NCBI RefSeq assembly: GCF_017873555.1
Contig: NZ_JAGGKE010000002.1
Coordinates: 124,001 to 188,000, forward strand
Direction of reading: 5' to 3'
Length of the DNA stretch: 64,000 nucleotides
From: Halorubrum trapanicum
GTDB taxonomy: Archaea > Halobacteriota > Halobacteria > Halobacteriales > Haloferacaceae
Under the pieces are notes generated by a model. It was given only the letters and a program-made list of their open reading frames with translations, was not told where the DNA came from and ran no database searches. A program made the position numbers and the translations under genes. Below, in pieces: positions 55,284 through 64,000 of this stretch (the first letter of the stretch is position 1; each line of letters begins with the position of its first letter).

Positions 55284-56670
55284 CAGTACCTCACAAAGCA
55301 TCGCCAGTTGAGTTGACCTGAGTCACCTGTTCTGTTGGGATGAGTCGTCGATAGTGGCCGAAGAACGCTAATCGAAGACCGAGCTGCCGCTGTCGGCGGC
55401 CACCAGCCGCCGACGCGGCAGCGTTGCCACTCACAAGGCACGTCCTCGGTCGGCGATTACCGGTGGAACCGGTCGTCCGGTGGCCTGTTCGCGGGGACGG
55501 CCCGACGTACCGCGAGGGCCGTCCACGCTGCCCGACAGAGCATGTTAATGAACTCCTCAAACGACCAGGACCAGAGGCGACGCCCGCCACGGCGGGGCGT
55601 CGCCACATACTCCCAATGGAGATACCGCCACACATTCTGCAAGAGTAGACTAACAACGACGTACAGCAGCCGTACAACCGGATTCTGCGTTGTCGTCGTC
55701 ACAATACTTTGTTCAGAGAGTCGGTAGCTGGCCTCGATACCGAAGCGTTTCGCGTAGTGGTATCGGGCATCTCGGGGTGTGTCAATGAACGGCGCGTCAG
55801 CGGCGTAGCCGTGACGCGCCACTCCGTGCTCGTCGTACCGCCCTTTTTGATAGGTACAGTCGATGTAGACGGGAAACTCGACGGTCCAGCTGTGACCGTC
55901 GAGTTTCCCCGTCAGGTCATGTTGGATTACACGGCTCCATCCTTCCGACAGTTCCTGCTTGATCGTCTTTCCCCATCGGACGATCGGCATCACGTACGCA
56001 TAGTTGTGGGCTTGAAGCAGCGTGAGACACTTGCTATCGTAGAATTCTCGGTCAAGATAGACGGCCTTGACGCCGAGGTCAAGGCCGTCAAGCAGACCAA
56101 GAAACTCCACGAGGACACTGCTGGCGGTGTCGCCGTCGACAAGACGGCGCACCGCCAGCGTGTATCGCTTATTCTTCACACGCGCGTAGAGTGTCGCATA
56201 GGCGTGGAATGCGGTGGTTCCACGCTTTGCCTCTGAGTGGTAGAGGCCAGCTGTTTCGTCCTTGTCACCGTAGTAGGGCCGCAGGTGGAGGTCTGCGACG
56301 ACCTCCACCTGCTCGGGGAGAACCTCTAGAACGTCCTTTTGCAGGAGTGCGTTCCCGACTTGTTCAACCGACGTTAGGTCGAACTTCTCGCGGAGGTGGT
56401 ACAGAATCGTGTTCTGATGAGGAGAGTCTTCACTAGTCTCGCAGAGTTCAGATACCGAGGTCCCGTCGGCGCAAGCGCCGACGAGGACCTCGTAGATATC
56501 CTCAGCACCTATTTCAGCATTAGCGCCAAGACCGAGATCAACTTCCTCGTCAAGCGTGTTGACGAGGAAGTTAAGGAGCTGGTCTTCGTGGATTTTACCG
56601 TCTGCTTGCTTGGTCTTAGACACACCTTCAGCAAGCAGACCTCTCAACTAACCGGCTTTGTGAAGTACTG
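55284..56670 (-). mobile_element. Complete ISH3-family insertion sequence, 1387 bp
   Basis: Bounded by imperfect inverted repeats: left end CAGTACCTCACAAAGC (55284-55299) and right end, read on the opposite strand, CAGTACTTCACAAAGC (56670-56655), one mismatch in 16; a second match block AGTTGAG follows on both sides. The 5-base duplication ATAAT flanks it. The single transposase gene fills most of the element on the minus strand. Length and structure fit ISH3-family elements. Transposase looks full length, so the element may still be active. Confidence 0.93.
55457..56623 (-). CDS. ISH3-family transposase
   Basis: DDE transposase of 388 residues that moves the surrounding insertion sequence. 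Family-defining stretches include KTKQADGKIHEDQLLNFLVN, EQVEVVADLHLRPYYGD (first catalytic Asp region), KAVYLDREFYDSKCL (second Asp) and ATPRRGGRRLW near the end. Start: GTG at 56623 begins VSKTKQAD, the usual family N-terminus; the longer frame to 56647 reads into the terminal region. No frameshift or stop is seen. Confidence 0.94.
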   Translation of the reverse strand: MSKTKQADGKIHEDQLLNFLVNTLDEEVDLGLGANAEIGAEDIYEVLVGACADGTSVSELCETSEDSPHQNTILYHLREKFDLTSVEQVGNALLQKDVLEVLPEQVEVVADLHLRPYYGDKDETAGLYHSEAKRGTTAFHAYATLYARVKNKRYTLAVRRLVDGDTASSVLVEFLGLLDGLDLGVKAVYLDREFYDSKCLTLLQAHNYAYVMPIVRWGKTIKQELSEGWSRVIQHDLTGKLDGHSWTVEFPVYIDCTYQKGRYDEHGVARHGYAADAPFIDTPRDARYHYAKRFGIEASYRLSEQSIVTTTTQNPVVRLLYVVVSLLLQNVWRYLHWEYVATPRRGGRRLWSWSFEEFINMLCRAAWTALAVRRAVPANRPPDDRFHR

Positions 56671-56984
56671 ATAATGTTTCCCTCGCCCGTAGCAGATTTT
56701 CCACCCTATGCGATTCACCGCATCGAGGGGTGTCGTTCCAGTACGGCTTCTTCTCCGTCTCCCCGGAATTATGTGGATGAAACAGCACTCCAGAGTTTGA
56801 TTCCATCCCGAGTTGATACGGCGATACGCGAATCGGTAAATCGTGCGAAGCGAATCGCATACGCCGACAGAAACGATTATTACGGATGTTCCCGTCTTTT
56901 AGAGTGTAGGCGTTTTCTCGCCGTAATTGCTGTCCACGAGCTTGCTCCGTGTAGGGGCCGCTCCGGGCGGCGGAGATTGTCTTT
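56671..56984. other. Island intergenic region with one copy of the 11-base motif
   Basis: No supported gene (frames are short or atypical). Starts with the right target duplication. ACCGCATCGAG occurs at 56717-56727. AT-rich around 56811-56880. A GGAG-type RBS at about 56971 and the ATG at 56985 mark the next gene. Confidence 0.45.
56717..56727 (+). repeat. 11-base island motif, site 1
   Basis: ACCGCATCGAG, extended on the right to GGGG. Intergenic, about 258 bases upstream of the TFIIB-like gene. See sites 2, 3 and 4. Confidence 0.7.
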
Positions 56985-57701
56985 ATGGCTACTACGCAGT
57001 CACTACCATCCGATTTCGAGCATCGAGCGAAGCAAGTAACCGCGAATCATCCCTTTGCGCGAACCGACGAGCATCTTGACACCCGTGTTGGGGAACACGC
57101 GGTCAGCGTTGACGCACAGAACAGCACTTACCTTGACGTCGAGGACGACCAGCTTACCGAACACGCGTCCGACGCACGAATCAACCACTACGCGAAGCTG
57201 GAACTGTACAACAGAGGGACGCACAACCTCAAATGGACGGTCGATGAATCCGCAAAGCGAGACAACGACGACTTCCTGTTCTGTGGGTCGCTTACCGACC
57301 AAATGGGACTCCCATACTGGATGAGGAAGGCCGTTTGGCGACTGTTCAAGCCGATGGATATGCGGGGGTACGCCCGCTTCGATACGCCGAAAGGCGAACC
57401 CGAGTACAAGCAGTATCTCGTTGCGTTCTGTATTGCCGCCGTTCTCTACAACCACTACCTGCCCGAACGGTGCGAGAAGTGGAGGTACTACCCGACAACT
57501 GAGTGCTACCCGAGCAAGTCGAAGCGGTATCGTTGTCCCCACTCCCGACTCCGCGCTCAGGAGATGGGTGACGACGGCGACGGGCATCAAGTCATTGAGC
57601 GGGTTGCCGACCAGATGGGTTTCACCGAGGAGGATTTGATTTCCTGCTACCAGATGGTGTTGTCCCGACTCCGGAAGTACCTCGAAGATACCGAAGACTG
57701 A
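56985..57701 (+). CDS. Unrecognised island protein, possible TFIIB/cyclin-like fold
   Basis: A 238-residue protein of unknown function. N-terminal 75 residues are polar (VSVDAQNSTYLDVEDD). Residues about 98-155 contain a helix-rich block, QMGLPYWMRKAVWRLFKPMD then YLVAFCIAAVLYNHYLP, reminiscent of the first cyclin repeat of archaeal TFB; residues about 200-235 (VIERVADQMGFTEEDLISCY) resemble a second, shorter repeat. Two Cys (ERCEKWRYY, YRCPHS) might bind metal. The resemblance is only in pattern, not proven. It precedes the Eco57I-like gene by 316 bases on the same strand. Codon use is less GC-biased than in core genes. ATG at 56985 with CGGAG upstream. Confidence 0.72.
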   Translation: MATTQSLPSDFEHRAKQVTANHPFARTDEHLDTRVGEHAVSVDAQNSTYLDVEDDQLTEHASDARINHYAKLELYNRGTHNLKWTVDESAKRDNDDFLFCGSLTDQMGLPYWMRKAVWRLFKPMDMRGYARFDTPKGEPEYKQYLVAFCIAAVLYNHYLPERCEKWRYYPTTECYPSKSKRYRCPHSRLRAQEMGDDGDGHQVIERVADQMGFTEEDLISCYQMVLSRLRKYLEDTED

Positions 57702-57808
57702 CTTAAAGACGGGAGGGGGTATATACGGTATCTTGTATTATATTAGGTGGCGGAGCTACCCGGTGAGATACCTCCGTGATACACACCGGGGTTCGACTCA
57801 AGCGGTTT

Positions 57809-57819
57809 ACCGCATCGAG
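57809..57819 (+). repeat. 11-base island motif, site 2
   Basis: ACCGCATCGAG, preceded by GGTTT and followed by GGGGGTTTGAAC. Together with the inverted site 3 it makes an arm pair GTTTACCGCATCGAGG / CCTCGATGCGGTAAAAC. Confidence 0.75.
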
Positions 57820-57863
57820 GGGGTTTGAACACAGGCGAGTGAGACAGAGAGGAAAGAAAACGC

Positions 57864-57874
57864 CTCGATGCGGT
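57864..57874 (-). repeat. 11-base island motif, site 3 (inverted)
   Basis: CTCGATGCGGT on the plus strand, the reverse complement of the motif; extended match to site 2 over about 16 bases. Confidence 0.75.
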
Positions 57875-58017
57875 AAAACACAAAGAGCGAAACACAGAGA
57901 AGTGAACCAGCAGGGTAAAACACGGCCAACAGTATCGGCAGAACTCCGTCACGACAGTACCCCTACGTTTATGACGATTTCCGCACCAGAATCGAGTAAC
58001 CGACTCCGGATTCACCA

Positions 58018-61000
58018 ATGTCTTCCGACTCATCATCTGTTCCCACCGAGTTCGTCGCGGACGCCTTCGAGACGACCGTCACCGACGACGAAGCCGACCG
58101 CTTCATCCAGACGATTGACGACGCCGTCTCGAACCTCCGCGACCAGATAGACGACGACACGCTCGAAAGCATCCTCCGGGCCGACGCCGGCTCCTACCAG
58201 CTCAAGAGCGGGATGACTAAAGACGGCCTTCAGCCTGAATCGTTCACGCAGGAAGCCGTCATTAATCCCCTCCTCGATGCGTTGGGACACGAGTATTCGA
58301 CCGAAGCCGGCGGACTCTCCGGCGGGCAAACGAAAGTAGCCGATTACACCATCTCCCTCCGCGACCATCCCGAAATAGACTCTACCCGTCTCCTTATCGA
58401 AGCCGAACCCATCAACAAAGACCTCGATAGCCGCAAGCACGGCGTCGGGCAAGTCCGGGACTGGCTGAGTCAACGAGAGTTCGAGTCGGACTTCGGCTTC
58501 GCCACCGACGGCCTCCGGTGGGTGTTCGTCCGGTACGACCCCGACTCCTACACGCTCAACGTCATCGAGGAGGTGGACTTACAGCCGGTCTTTCTCGCGC
58601 TCTTCGAGAACCAAGTCGGCAAACGCGACGACCCCGCGGACGTCCTCTTCGACGCCGACCGCGACCGCGTCCTTCGGCTCGTCCGCACGTTCGAGTACGA
58701 GAACTTCGTCTCCATCGCGGGAGACGCCCGCCGCGTCATCAAGGAGAAGAAGGAGGAAATCACCGACGAGTTTTACGACGACTACATCCGGTACGTCTTC
58801 GGTATCGTCGGGGGCGACGAAGAGACCGCCCGCTCACTCGTCGGAGACGGCGTCGTCGTTCCCGAGGAAGCGACCGAGGACAACGCCCGACTCTTCGCGG
58901 TCGAACTGATGAACCGGCTCGTCTTCATCAAGTTCCTCGAAGACAAGACGCTCGTTGAACCCAACCTCCTCAGCACGCTCAAGGAGACCTACGAGAACGG
59001 GATGTACGCCGGCTCGTTCTACGAGTCGTTCTGTCAACCGCTGTTCTACGACGTGATGAACAACAAGCCGGACGACCGCCCGGACTCCGTCCAGAACATC
59101 GACCTCTTCCAGAACATCCCGTACCTCAACGGCGGCCTCTTCCGCCCCACGATTAGCGGGGACGACTTCGAGGAAGCGGACTTCGACGTGCGGAACTCGG
59201 TGCTGTTCTCCATCATCGACCTCTTGGAGCGGTACAGCTTCTCGGCGGAAGGCGCACCGACCGACCTCGACCCGAGCGTTCTCGGCAACGTCTTCGAGAA
59301 GACAATCAACTACATCACGAGCGACAACGCGGACACGAACAAGGAACTCGGGGCGTACTACACGCCGAGCGAGATAACCCGGTTCTCCGCCGAGGAGACT
59401 GTCCGCCCGGCTCTGCTCGACCGCTTCCAGACGGTGCTTGTCGAAGAGTGTGACTGGCCGGAACACGAGGCCGAGCGGTTCGACTCGGTGTACGAACTCA
59501 TCGAGGGGCTTCCCGGCCATATGGGGACAATCGGGCCGCTTCTGGACGAAGTGAACGAGTTCCGCGTAGTTGACCCTGCGTGTGGGAGTGGACACTTCCT
59601 CACCAGCGTCCTCGAAGAAATTGTCAACATCCGGAAGGCGCTGTACGCGCAAAACGAAGCCTATCCCGACGAGTATCGCCTGAAAAAGACGACTGTCCTC
59701 GAAAACATCTACGGGGTTGACCTGATGGGGCCGGCAGTCGAGATTGCGAAACTCCGGTGTTGGCTCTCGGTTATCTCCGAACTCGAAACCGAGAACGTTG
59801 ACGACCTTGCGGAGGCCGATGCGCTTGCCCTGCCGAACATCGCGTTCAACCTACGGGAAGGGAACAGCCTCATCGGGTACACAGGCTTCCCGGAAATGAA
59901 CGGTGACGACCAGTACCGTCTCGGGAGTTTCAGCGGGGACAGCGTCCGCGACCGCTATCAGGGAATCATCGACGAAATCGAGAAGCACGAACAGGCGATT
60001 GACACCGAGACTGCCGAGAAGCATCGTCGGCGGGCGTTCGAGAAGCTTCGGGACGCTCGTGAGGAACTGATTGATGATATTCACAGGGACTTCAACGAGG
60101 CGGGTGTTGAGGAAATCACTCAACAAGAAGTCGCTGAGATGGAACCCTTTAATTGGGTGCTGGAGTTCGCGGAGGTGTATGCGGAGGGCGGGTTTGACGT
60201 AGTCGTTGGAAACCCACCGTGGGACAGACTGAAACCTCTTAGAGACGACTTTTTCTCCCGGTACAAGGCTACATTCCGGACACTTCCTCCGGACGAAAAG
60301 GACGCGGTACAGGAGGAACTACTGGAGGATGAACACATCTCGCAAGAGTGGGAGAACTATCTGGACAGTATGGACAAGAGGGCGACGTACTTCAAGAACA
60401 GTTCAGCATATGAGCTACAACGACCGGAAATTGATGGGCGGGTAAAACCGAACCCGAACGACCTCTCCGCATTATTCTTAGAGCGTGTTTACAGGATTGC
60501 CGATGACGATTCCCACATAGCACAGGTTCTGCCCGGAGTGGTGTTCAACGGAGCATCGTGTAAAGACCTCCGGAGCCATCTACTCGATAAAACCCGGCTA
60601 AAAGCCCTTCCAATCTTCGAGAATCACGGTATCTTCGACCAGATTCACGGACAATACAAGTTTGGAGTCGCTGTCTTTGAGAATCAAGGAACGACAGATA
60701 CTGTAACTGGAATTTATCAGGAAGGGAATGTCGAAATACTCCAATCGTTTGAAGAGAACGCTATTGACATACCTAAAGGTGTTCTCGAATCGTACTCTCC
60801 CGAAGCTCGTATCTTCCCGTACATTGAGTCGGAGGAGAAGTTGGAGGTTATCAAGACGCTCATCGAGAAGCCTCCATTGGGAGATAAAACAGCTTCAGAT
60901 TGGTACATGGAGCCATATCAGGGACTTAGACGGACAAGCGATTCAGACAGGTTCGTTGATGAAGCGGAAGGAGAATACCCGGTCTATGGTGGTAGTAATA

Positions 61001-61851
61001 TATATCAATTCTCCTACACTTCAGATTTCTTCGAAGATATAGATTCCCCCGAGTTCTGGAGTGTTGAGGAGGAGACTGACCCGGAGAGAAGTGCGAAACA
61101 GCGTATGCGTGAGAAGACGATAGGCGACCTGAAGAAAGCAATTTACGAAGAGTTCGACGGCACAGGGTCGCAAAAGGGATTCGTGAACGATTTGCTTGAA
61201 GAACATCGCGGGAAACCCTTGTCTGAAAAAGACGTTCTCCTTGATAGTACAAGGGCGCGAATTGTTCTGCGGGACATTACTAACTCCACAAATGAGCGGA
61301 CACTCATTTCAACAGTTCTCCCCGAAGGAATTGTCTGCCACAATACTCTCAGAGCAGTTCGCAACTATAAGATGGAACCTTTCGAGGAAGGACTAACAGA
61401 ATATCCGTTACACGACTTCTACCAGCCAATATTCACGGACGAAGAGCTATTCGCAGGAGTTGGCCTGCTAAATTCACTCCCCTTCGATTATCTCATCCGA
61501 ACGAAGGTTGACACCCATATTGTCACCTACAAGTTCAAAGAGACGCAAGTCCCACACCTCTCCGAAGGTGACGAGTGGTTCGAGCAAATCTGGAGGCGGG
61601 CCGCTCGACTCAACTGCTACGGCGACGACTTCGAGGAGATGCGTAACCGACTCGGTGGCATTAAGCCGGCGACGACGTTGGACGAACGCCGGAAGGTACA
61701 GGCCGAACTTGACGCCGCCGCGTTCCACGCCTACGGTCTTGACCGCGAGCAAACGGCGTTCGTACTGGACGACTTCCACCGCGTTCAGAATCCCCGTCTG
61801 ATGGACGAGGATTACTTCGAGACAGTTCTGGAGAAGTACGATGAGTTGTGA
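58018..61851 (+). CDS. Eco57I/type IIG-like restriction-modification protein
   Basis: Single-chain 1277-residue protein combining a nuclease-like head, a DNA adenine methyltransferase and a target-recognition tail. Residues about 80-190 look like a type I HsdR_N/PD-(D/E)xK domain: Asp109 in VADYTISL and IEAEPINK with Glu128 and Glu130, where the usual Lys is replaced by Glu. Helical linker 190-480 (LGNVFEKTINYI, LGAYYTPSEI at about 447). Methyltransferase motif I is DPACGSGHF at Asp519, motif IV is NPPW at 732-735. The rest, with VYGGSNIYQFSY and HIVTYKFKETQVPHLSEG, should read the DNA sequence. Expected role is defence against phage or plasmids, possibly methylation alone if the head is inactive. 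GC is lower toward the 3' half. Confidence 0.9.
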   Translation: MSSDSSSVPTEFVADAFETTVTDDEADRFIQTIDDAVSNLRDQIDDDTLESILRADAGSYQLKSGMTKDGLQPESFTQEAVINPLLDALGHEYSTEAGGLSGGQTKVADYTISLRDHPEIDSTRLLIEAEPINKDLDSRKHGVGQVRDWLSQREFESDFGFATDGLRWVFVRYDPDSYTLNVIEEVDLQPVFLALFENQVGKRDDPADVLFDADRDRVLRLVRTFEYENFVSIAGDARRVIKEKKEEITDEFYDDYIRYVFGIVGGDEETARSLVGDGVVVPEEATEDNARLFAVELMNRLVFIKFLEDKTLVEPNLLSTLKETYENGMYAGSFYESFCQPLFYDVMNNKPDDRPDSVQNIDLFQNIPYLNGGLFRPTISGDDFEEADFDVRNSVLFSIIDLLERYSFSAEGAPTDLDPSVLGNVFEKTINYITSDNADTNKELGAYYTPSEITRFSAEETVRPALLDRFQTVLVEECDWPEHEAERFDSVYELIEGLPGHMGTIGPLLDEVNEFRVVDPACGSGHFLTSVLEEIVNIRKALYAQNEAYPDEYRLKKTTVLENIYGVDLMGPAVEIAKLRCWLSVISELETENVDDLAEADALALPNIAFNLREGNSLIGYTGFPEMNGDDQYRLGSFSGDSVRDRYQGIIDEIEKHEQAIDTETAEKHRRRAFEKLRDAREELIDDIHRDFNEAGVEEITQQEVAEMEPFNWVLEFAEVYAEGGFDVVVGNPPWDRLKPLRDDFFSRYKATFRTLPPDEKDAVQEELLEDEHISQEWENYLDSMDKRATYFKNSSAYELQRPEIDGRVKPNPNDLSALFLERVYRIADDDSHIAQVLPGVVFNGASCKDLRSHLLDKTRLKALPIFENHGIFDQIHGQYKFGVAVFENQGTTDTVTGIYQEGNVEILQSFEENAIDIPKGVLESYSPEARIFPYIESEEKLEVIKTLIEKPPLGDKTASDWYMEPYQGLRRTSDSDRFVDEAEGEYPVYGGSNIYQFSYTSDFFEDIDSPEFWSVEEETDPERSAKQRMREKTIGDLKKAIYEEFDGTGSQKGFVNDLLEEHRGKPLSEKDVLLDSTRARIVLRDITNSTNERTLISTVLPEGIVCHNTLRAVRNYKMEPFEEGLTEYPLHDFYQPIFTDEELFAGVGLLNSLPFDYLIRTKVDTHIVTYKFKETQVPHLSEGDEWFEQIWRRAARLNCYGDDFEEMRNRLGGIKPATTLDERRKVQAELDAAAFHAYGLDREQTAFVLDDFHRVQNPRLMDEDYFETVLEKYDEL

Positions 61852-62021: not shown

Positions 62022-62555
62022 TTACTCGGGAAGTTCTTTCCTCCCGTCTCTCACGCACGGCCAGCAGGGGAAGTCGTCGGATAATCCCGCACAGTCACAC
62101 TCGTCGTGTTCTGCCGCATCGAGGGGTTTGGACTCCCCGCCGACTCCCTCGGTTGTAGCCCCACCGTCTGCCCGGAGCTTGTCCGACAACGTCGATGCGT
62201 TCGACCGCTCGGAGTTCCCGCTCGGCGTCGGACAGTTTACAGATGCTTCGAGGACGACCGGGCCGCCGACCGTGGCGAGCGCGACCTTGTGCTTACAGTC
62301 GTACTTCTCGTTGTACTTGTCCGCCGGACACTCGCACTCCGCCGGAACGAGGACGCCGTCGCGGTCTTCGACGCCGACGAGGTACGAGTGGTCGGCTTTC
62401 TCCGCGCCGTAGGAAGCGTTCGTGACGCGAACCAGATGCGGGGCTTCGACCGCGAACTCCCACAACTCCCACGAGACGCGCTTCGACGTCTTCGCGCCGA
62501 AGTTCAGGTATTCAACAGCGTTGCGCTTATCTGCCGCAGAGTCGTTTTCTGACAT
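62022..62555 (-). CDS. SWIM zinc-finger protein
   Basis: A 177-residue protein with the SWIM signature: Cys74-x-Cys76 and Cys87-x-His89 in AECECPADKYNEKYDCKHKV. The first 60 residues, with YLNFGAKTSKRVSWELWEFA and VRVTNASYGAEKADHSYLVG, match a family common in haloarchaea and often seen near mobile and restriction genes. A second Cys cluster (ECDC, FPCWPC) lies at the C-terminus. SWIM domains bind DNA or proteins; exact role unknown. Start: ATG at 62555; the longer frame to 62642 runs across the shared promoter. Divergent from the winged-helix gene. Confidence 0.87.
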   Translation of the reverse strand: MSENDSAADKRNAVEYLNFGAKTSKRVSWELWEFAVEAPHLVRVTNASYGAEKADHSYLVGVEDRDGVLVPAECECPADKYNEKYDCKHKVALATVGGPVVLEASVNCPTPSGNSERSNASTLSDKLRADGGATTEGVGGESKPLDAAEHDECDCAGLSDDFPCWPCVRDGRKELPE

Positions 62556-62657
62556 GGCTTTCTGGTATCCACCGAAGGCCACCGTCCGAGTGTTCCAGCA
62601 CTCGGGCATTCTGACGAAACGAACGCCCCGAAGGACGGCCACCTTCTACCTGTAACC

Positions 62658-62696
62658 ACGTAGTAATTGGTAATAAGCATTCCCCTATTACTTCGT
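62658..62696. promoter_or_regulatory. Palindromic operator candidate between SWIM and winged-helix genes
   Basis: ACGTAGTAAT (62658-62667) and ATTACTTCGT (62687-62696) are inverted repeats with one mismatch in ten, separated by 19 bases that hold TTGGTAATAAGC. It lies in the divergent promoter, so the nearby small winged-helix protein could bind it and control both genes. Confidence 0.5.
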
Positions 62697-62735
62697 AGTC
62701 ATAGGATTGAAGCGTCAACGGCTCGAATCCTGTGT

Positions 62736-62972
62736 ATGGAACGCGAACGCGACAACTCCGGGCAGTACGTCGAACAATTGACGGTCGATGCGGTACTCCA
62801 TGTCTTCGAGGAGGCCGACGTTCCCGTACTAACGGCTAATGAGGTAGCCGACGAACTGGACTGTTCCCGCCCGGCGGCATACAACAAGCTGGAGAAACTG
62901 GTCGAACAGGGAGAACTCCTGAAAAAGAAAGTCGGAGCGCGGGCAGTAGTCTATATCCGACTCAACGAGTAG
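62736..62972 (+). CDS. Small winged-helix regulator
   Basis: A 78-residue DNA-binding protein. Helices LTVDAVLHVFEEADVPVLTA, NEVADELDCSRPAAYNKLEKL (helix-turn-helix with recognition helix PAAYNKLEKLVEQ) and a wing LLKKKVGARAVVYIRL form a complete winged helix with nothing else. It probably acts as a dimeric repressor. It is divergent from the SWIM gene with a palindrome between them. ATG at 62736 follows AATCCTGTGT. Confidence 0.83.
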   Translation: MERERDNSGQYVEQLTVDAVLHVFEEADVPVLTANEVADELDCSRPAAYNKLEKLVEQGELLKKKVGARAVVYIRLNE

Positions 62973-63221: not shown

Positions 63222-64000
63222 CTACTCCATCCCGAACTCTCTCCGTCGTAGCTCTCGCTTTTCGCTCTCCGAACGGGCATCGTAGTGTTTCTCCAGCGTC
63301 TTCGCGGAGACGTTCATCCGGTCGGAGAGGAGTTCCTTACTGTGCCCCTCGTTGAGCCAATGCGTAATCGCTCCGCGTCGAATCGGATGCGGAGATACCG
63401 AGGTCGGACACTTCGAGGCGTGGTCGTAATCCTGTGCGGCTTCACACTCGGATTGGTCGCGCCCGTGGGGACACTCTCCTGTAGTGTGACAGGGCCGAGT
63501 CACGCGGTTAATATGCATCCGGAGATTCGACCGAACGGTTCGCCCCCTCGATGAGGAAAACAACGGCTCGCGTCCGTACTCGTCTGTCACGTCGTTACGG
63601 TGAATTTGGAGGTAGTCATCGAGGATGTCGCACACCCACGGATGGAGATTCACTTCGCGTTCGGCTCGCGTCCCGTTCTTTAGCGGAGTGTCCTGTTCGG
63701 GTCGATGCCTGATTTCGACGTATTGTTCTTCCGGATGATAGTCCTCTACGTCGATAGCACGGGCAGTTCCGATACGGAAGCCTGTGTCCCACAGCAAGGC
63801 GAATAGTGTGTGCCGGAGCGTGGCGTACTCGAACTTCTCCAAGTAATTGAGTATCTGGTCGGCACGCTCGGCATCGAGCATCGTATCGCGGGCGTCGTCC
63901 TCCAAGTCGGGAAGAATCATATTCTCCACGACACTCGAATCGACCAGTTCCATCGAGCGACACCACTTGAGGAAGACACGGAGCGTACAGAGATTTTTGT
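63222..64000 (-). CDS. Tyrosine recombinase/integrase, 5' end beyond window
   Basis: Phage-integrase-family recombinase, the likely agent that moved this island. The catalytic domain is visible: Arg in LLWDTGFRIGTARAIDV, Lys near PLKNGTRAER, HPIRRGAITHWLN (His-x-x-Arg) and the nucleophile Tyr in KTLEKHYDARSE. A Cys/His cluster before the HxxR (CPHGRDQSECEAA, ASKCP) is an insertion often found in haloarchaeal integrases and may bind zinc. The frame continues without stop to 64000 (NLCTLRVFLKWCRSMELVD), so an ATG at 63953 is internal and the N-terminal core-binding domain lies outside the window. Stop TGA/TAG region ends at 63222. Confidence 0.92.
   Translation of the reverse strand, partial: KNLCTLRVFLKWCRSMELVDSSVVENMILPDLEDDARDTMLDAERADQILNYLEKFEYATLRHTLFALLWDTGFRIGTARAIDVEDYHPEEQYVEIRHRPEQDTPLKNGTRAEREVNLHPWVCDILDDYLQIHRNDVTDEYGREPLFSSSRGRTVRSNLRMHINRVTRPCHTTGECPHGRDQSECEAAQDYDHASKCPTSVSPHPIRRGAITHWLNEGHSKELLSDRMNVSAKTLEKHYDARSESEKRELRRREFGME

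Follow-up and report, generated by a model that had tools for sequence, protein, structure and literature searches.

The open reading frame at positions 56985–57701 (+) of the 64,000-nucleotide stretch of Halorubrum trapanicum DNA analysed here, which we refer to as the window, precedes a large restriction-modification (R-M) gene and raises the question of whether it encodes a relative of the archaeal transcription factor TFB, as proposed in a preliminary description, and of what such a protein would do at this locus. The frame starts with an ATG at 56985, its stop codon ends at 57701, and its checked translation of 238 residues contains all three sequence blocks that had been quoted for it. 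In a protein search of 391 genomes of the same class, the closest relative was found in another genus, where it matches at full length with 40% identity (E 2e-47), and two weaker relatives reside in further genomes, which brings the total to four of 391 genomes with the window's own. Since these relatives are accompanied by a match to the profile of the viral family phrog_12649 (E 2.9e-11, residues 29–173 of 238), the frame is confirmed as a real and conserved gene, beyond what would be expected of a chance reading frame. This family has no known function and is the only one matched by the protein at the level of sequence. Searches of NCBIfam and PADLOC returned no family, the protein had no match in plasmids, neither the protein nor its four-member alignment matched genome contigs or viral contigs, and two other alignments (A3 and A4) scanned against viral contigs remained equally without match. 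The sole match in Pfam, to GcrA (E 0.0023), was rejected, as it lies below the Pfam cut-off and covers residues 34–113, mostly outside the repeat described below.

By its profile match, the protein can be assigned to phrog_12649 as a family of haloarchaeal viruses and mobile elements that includes a gene of the virus HF2. A tblastn search retrieved 25 records of HF1/HF2/HRTV-5-type haloviruses, with identities of about 22% (best E 3e-4). The Hafunaviridae proteins of the family, such as HRTV-5 gp84 and HF2 HrrHF2_215, contain the same blocks as the window protein but comprise only about 160 residues, whereas the window member is extended at its N-terminus and has a longer loop connecting helices 3 and 4. 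The viral genes also differ in their surroundings, adjoining an endonuclease gene in the HF2 and HRTV-5 records, whereas the window gene is found on an island with R-M cargo. In both viral records (HF2, L015 3998–4938; HRTV-5, L014 7998–8938), the endonuclease gene, which is of the ERCC4 type in HF2, directly follows the family gene with overlapping coding ends. Across the class, the PHROG profile matches 203 of 391 genomes at E 0.01, and the matches examined are of two kinds, namely diverse proteins of about 160–300 residues and one conserved protein of about 245–265 residues, which matches the profile at E ~1e-5 (eight examined). The family set used in the following leaves out two duplicates (L013 and L045) and one sequence with an in-frame stop (L036), and in one region (L224) the family gene was not found at E 1e-5.

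The conserved protein of 245–265 residues is annotated on RefSeq plasmids as 'DNA-directed RNA polymerase subunit epsilon' (H26–H29, 57–61% identity), and its identity as epsilon is used here by this naming. In excerpts of a published account (PMC8305020, which cites Madon and Zillig 1983 and Leffers 1989 on this point), epsilon is described as an extra subunit of the Halobacterium polymerase, the polymerase containing it as transcribing native templates efficiently, and its biological relevance as enigmatic. Profile-profile comparison of the window family with epsilon resulted in P 2.1e-11 for 34 against 8 sequences and P 2.2e-11 with a score of 78.7 for 44 against 88, whereas column-permuted controls did not exceed 20.2 and in none of 150 cases reached the real score. 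The match persisted when the window protein and 14 viral proteins were compared to 35 epsilons (P 2.7e-9) and when the family side was reduced to the window protein with its three closest relatives from cellular genomes (P 1.3e-4). These comparisons point to homology between the window family and epsilon, which is the closest cellular relative of the window protein; the preliminary description had foreseen neither this relationship nor the viral members of the family.

The profile homology between epsilon (rpoeps; OE_1279R in Hbt. salinarum) and the window protein extends over a linker-like segment and the cyclin repeat discussed below, both proteins share the same predicted fold, and a zinc ribbon is found in none of 88 epsilons, as in the window family. 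Epsilon differs by conserved blocks at its N- and C-termini (around RADxQRD and YGRNPxRDPNLP), and their absence from the window protein, together with its location on an island with an integrase, argues against orthology. At E 0.001 the epsilon profile matches 181 of the 391 genomes of the class, weak relatives counted in, but not the window's own. In the window's taxonomic family, 22 of the 170 genomes match, with strong matches (E below 1e-90) in only three of them. The island thus brings an epsilon-like protein to a genome in which no epsilon was detected. Weaker relatives of epsilon (L230–L238 and others, E 1e-4 to 1e-27) were observed in 19 of the 170 genomes of the taxonomic family, all of them lacking a strong epsilon match, and these proteins may represent transitional forms linking epsilon to the mobile family.

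The AlphaFold model of the window protein, obtained from 15 sequences with moderate confidence (pLDDT 69, pTM 0.57), contains five helices in cyclin order. In this model the N-terminal extension is followed by the linker-like segment (residues 42–87) and by one cyclin repeat with helices at residues 88–106, 111–124, 139–158, 200–210 and 215–235. The epsilon model, based on its own alignment of 35 sequences (pLDDT 72.5, pTM 0.59), displays a better core than that of the window protein, with blocks within residues 81–210 at 82–96 confidence. The comparison with TFB and cyclin folds that had been recommended was carried out with both models. In Foldseek searches no match at E 0.001 was found for either of them, and TFIIB chains were located near the top of the PDB list for the window model with probabilities up to 0.97. 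In VIA, the best rows for the window model are yeast TFIIB (Z 9.7, rmsd 6.2 over 136) and then human Brf2 (Z 9.4, rmsd 2.9 over 96 residues of the first repeat), and 43 of the 50 rows are TFIIB, Brf2, cyclins, Rb or chains that we take to be Orc6, while the remaining seven all show a Z of 6.3 or less. For the epsilon model, the list of 50 rows consists entirely of TFIIB, Brf2 and cyclin chains, and yeast TFIIB reaches Z 10.2 with an rmsd of 2.5 over 96. Among these cyclin-superfamily chains, TFIIB and Brf2 provide the best rows for both models, which fall into the first repeat. In the viral library, a protein of Halogranum tailed virus 1 was matched with a probability of 0.99, and giant-virus proteins with TFIIB repeats matched weakly.

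Based on these models, the window protein is predicted to be a five-helix member of the cyclin-fold superfamily, and epsilon and the virus and island family appear to share a cyclin repeat of the TFIIB type. We regard it as very improbable that the protein is instead a generic small helical bundle, which would resemble cyclins by the arrangement of its helices alone. Such a bundle would be compatible with the moderate model confidence, with Foldseek E values above 0.4 and with the caution given by the aligner itself that helical proteins may reach Z values of 8–13 without clear relation, but it would not account for the fact that models from two separate alignments are matched almost exclusively by chains of the cyclin superfamily, which a gap sets apart from the remaining rows, nor for a profile score between the family and TFB that exceeds all of 150 permuted nulls.

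This score was obtained in a comparison of 44 family members with 32 archaeal TFBs (P 2e-4, score 35.4 compared to a null maximum of 22.4, n=150; the TFB profile leaves out L170 and L180, for which the wrong strand was picked), where the alignment is collinear over the linker and the first repeat. By the model and by the family profile, the first cyclin repeat and linker region of archaeal TFB and of eukaryotic TFIIB and Brf2 may have a counterpart in the window protein. Five sub-alignments of the family gave P values of only 0.0045–0.044 against TFB when used alone, with A3 and A6 aligning to the second repeat. Profile comparison of epsilon with TFB did not reach significance, with P values of 0.54 and 0.27 that fall within the null, profile searches of PDB sequences did not find TFIIB and returned only weak unrelated chains or none, and hmmscan of the window protein gave no match to the Pfam TFIIB family (PF00382), whose 19 matches in the window's genome do not include it; the true TFBs of this genome are encoded at other loci.

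Unlike the window protein with its single repeat, TFB and TFIIB contain a zinc ribbon, a B-finger and two cyclin repeats. Two such repeats had initially been suspected in the helical blocks of the window protein, an assignment that does not hold in the model, where the quoted blocks coincide with helices 2–3 and 4–5 of the same repeat, the second repeat is absent and most structural matches span one repeat only. The resemblance to TFB as such is supported by the TFB/cyclin fold predicted for the window protein. The reported lack of a zinc ribbon and a B-finger is confirmed in a protein that contains neither CxxC pairs nor an EWRAF string, and it extends to the family, with the zinc-ribbon pattern CxxC-x(10-25)-CxxC found in 0 of 44 members compared to 29 of 32 TFBs and the EWRAF string of the B-finger in 0 of 44 compared to 31 of 32. 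In light of these absent strings in all 44 members and of the modest support that sequences lend to the TFB relationship itself, we classify the protein as TFB-like and not as TFB. The earlier interpretation is in this way partly supported, being right in kind but one repeat short.

In TFIIB, the linker and the first repeat sit on the clamp and the wall of the polymerase and help to open and hold promoter DNA. We consider it probable that the window gene encodes a mobile relative of epsilon whose single TFIIB-type repeat and linker-like segment would dock on the polymerase and bias initiation. The product lacks the zinc ribbon for polymerase recruitment, the B-finger reaching the active site and the second repeat reading the BRE, and it would most likely occupy the place of the TFB linker and first repeat on the wall and clamp side of the host polymerase near promoter DNA, where it would alter which promoters are chosen or how they open, to the benefit of genes of the element itself. 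We know of no polymerase or DNA binding for any mobile member of the family; while its membership, its link to epsilon, its predicted fold and its mobile R-M setting are computed, we infer that it binds polymerase, where it docks and in which direction it acts. A protein consisting only of linker and first repeat could either ride the polymerase like epsilon and aid chosen promoters or block TFB, and in view of the precedent of epsilon we favour a role in helping initiation.

The blocking variant, in which an anti-factor would fill the site of the TFB first repeat and linker on the polymerase or on TBP-promoter complexes and thereby prevent host initiation, appears distinctly unlikely to us. 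The missing zinc ribbon, B-finger and second repeat would be equally suited to such a protein, tailed haloviruses carry the family, and inhibition of the polymerase by an archaeal virus has a precedent in ATV RIP, as described in excerpts of PMC5123050. Conversely, according to excerpts of PMC8305020 the cellular relative epsilon enhances the transcription of native DNA, and a chromosomal residence next to R-M cargo would suit a regulator better than a poison.

If the family contains such helpers of initiation, promoters of the viruses themselves would be candidate targets. In HF2, the region of the homologue contains a conserved bidirectional promoter with 12-bp direct repeats, according to excerpts of PMC8707807, and the start site T-17022 mapped there is located, by our computation of positions, 37 nt before the ATG of the homologue, which it presumably serves. 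The same excerpts state that the repeat promoters of HF2 function without virus-encoded proteins, and that the authors expect virus-encoded proteins to govern their use by the host polymerase. The family is a candidate for this governor. Many of the small viral and proviral members (L066–L077, L017–L028) are preceded, within 300 bp of the gene, by closely packed repeats in direct or inverted orientation. As a family-wide rule, such repeats were dropped, since only 14 of 40 upstream regions reached p ≤0.02, most of the small viral or proviral type, compared to 10 of 78 for epsilon.

The window gene stands on a mobile island. It is followed by a type IIG/Eco57I-like R-M enzyme of 1277 residues (58018–61851, +; Pfam Eco57I, E 2.6e-22; PADLOC REase_MTase_IIG, E 4e-35), a SWIM zinc-finger gene (62022–62642, −), a small HTH gene (62667–62972, +) and a phage-type integrase (63222–63953, −). 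On its other side, a frame of 396 residues (55457–56647, −) reads like a DDE transposase, a name that is putative since no Pfam match was found at E 0.1. Of 43 family regions, the window counted, 31 contain an integrase homologue at a distance of up to 6 kb from the family gene and 24 at up to 3 kb, and homologues of the SWIM and HTH genes are found within 6 kb in 7 and 8, respectively. A divergent SWIM/HTH pair is placed ahead of the family gene in four other regions (L055, L056, L206 and L216), and most of the islands with this pair bear an integrase. In contrast, none of 80 epsilon loci contains an integrase or an R-M homologue of the tested kinds within 3-kb flanks.

A link of the family to Eco57I-like and other R-M genes across haloarchaea, which had been put forward for testing, was found in Pfam, methylase-motif and homologue scans. 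Pfam, with which 119 of the 132 neighbours of family genes and 109 of the 152 neighbours in control regions were scanned, identified 22 integrases and five Eco57I-type proteins among the former, while both are absent from the 25 most frequent families of the latter (lowest count 2), and methylase motifs were detected in 7 of 132 family neighbours but in 0 of 152 controls. These two scans constitute the unbiased checks, whereas the comparison of R-M homologues, present in 18 of 52 regions with the family gene but in none of 37 control regions, is biased upward because all 14 R-M queries were taken from family regions, and it sets control regions of 14 kb against family regions of about 20 kb. 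Open reading frames in these regions were assigned with a simple rule based on acidity and not with a gene finder. The 18 R-M-bearing regions comprise 10 with type IIG enzymes, three with HsdM, three with other methylase or R-M sets and two with fragments. Within the closest subfamily, R-M genes are found within 9 kb in three of four cases (the window, G363 and G311, but not G240). Family genes are thus located near integrases and often near R-M genes.

The spacers of the island contain a motif of 15 bp, TTYACCGCATCGAGG, in three copies, which are the only exact ones in the genome of 3.08 Mb. Copy 1 (56714–56728, +) is separated by 256 bp of spacer from the ATG of the family gene; we rejected it as a terminal repeat of the frame at 55457–56647, for which no partner with up to two mismatches was found at the other end. 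Copy 2 (57806–57820, +) follows the family gene on its 3' side and leaves 197 bp to the R-M ATG, and copy 3 (57863–57877, −) is inverted with respect to copy 2 and precedes the same ATG by 140 bp. Together, copies 2 and 3 form arms of 21 nt with 90% complementarity that are 30 nt apart. As the motif was picked from the window, its test lies in other genomes, where the spacer motif turned out to be shared with other family loci. In total, 36 exact copies were found in 27 of the 391 genomes scanned, whereas a reversed control pattern gave none in any genome. Eight of these copies, in five genomes, have a family gene at a distance of less than 400 bp (52 family-gene regions). Outside the window's own genome, 6 of 33 copies fall into family-gene islands (one each in G343 and G022, two each in G081 and G137), compared to a chance expectation of about 0.02 by area (about 1 Mb of about 1.4 Gb, estimated by hand), and five of the six are found within 400 bp on the 3' side of the family gene.

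The neighbour of the motif-bearing family gene is an R-M gene in each of these five genomes, of type IIG in the window, G081 and G022 and HsdM-HsdS in G343 and G137, and in G081 the other copy is located 56 bp before the R-M ATG. This arrangement would be expected of a controller of restriction, in which the region of helices 4–5 binds the array of TTYACCGCATCGAGG copies and regulates the adjacent R-M gene with or without contacting the polymerase. The controller (C) proteins of bacterial R-M systems likewise combine a small gene beside the R-M gene with short repeated motifs in the spacer, a likeness confined to the way they work. C proteins are Xre-type HTH proteins, unlike the window protein with its predicted cyclin fold. 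We nevertheless consider a motif-binding controller unlikely. The motif-bearing members belong to three lineages with 16–30% identity between them, although the motif is unchanged; in G291, a copy located 52 bp upstream of a frame of 168 residues that precedes an R-M gene has no family gene that could be found within 18.5 kb around it; the motif is missing from the tested spacers of R-M neighbours in L221, L223, L206, L307 and L313; and 34 of the 52 family regions do not contain an R-M homologue. The constancy of the motif at such low protein identity and the G291 copy call for caution in tying the protein to it, and the motif, which in the window and in L214, L225, L226, L306 and L323 is found beside type IIG and type I R-M genes of several genera, may belong to R-M operons or islands rather than to the TFB-like protein.

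It is less likely than not that the pairs of TTYACCGCATCGAGG serve as extragenic palindromes, as terminators or as boundaries of cassettes and are unconnected with the TFB-like protein. Such a role is consistent with their position 3' of the family gene in five of five genomes, with their frequent arrangement as inverted and sometimes degenerate pairs (window, L214, L225 and L226) and with the distribution of exact copies, 27 of 36 of which are outside family islands and 20 of 33 classed ones inside coding sequence. It is less easily reconciled with the copies in G081 and G291, which at 52–56 bp upstream of R-M operons occupy the position of a promoter, and with G137, where two exact copies in direct orientation would not form a hairpin.

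To return to the favoured reading of a mobile epsilon relative that biases initiation, its broadest extension is one that we put forward as doubtful. Epsilon would in that case be a stripped TFIIB of one repeat and linker, haloviruses and R-M islands would spread epsilon-like factors, also into lineages devoid of epsilon, and redirect the host polymerase, and in R-M islands the factor and the TTYACCGCATCGAGG array would act as a promoter-specific switch of restriction genes. This would be an archaeal equivalent of control by C proteins that makes use of the fold of a general transcription factor. The literature considered, on epsilon, on halovirus and mobile-element proteins resembling TFB or cyclins, on transcription of HF2 and on R-M controllers, showed no such link, with most subscription papers outside its scope. 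The predicted fold of a TFIIB first repeat offers a concrete place on the polymerase to look for the role of epsilon, and the viral and island relatives are small proteins with which this role could be probed. If mobile elements carry epsilon- or TFB-like factors next to R-M genes, this would provide a route to transcription control by defence islands and viruses, and our results suggest that viruses and mobile islands of haloarchaea spread factors that steer the transcription machinery of their hosts.
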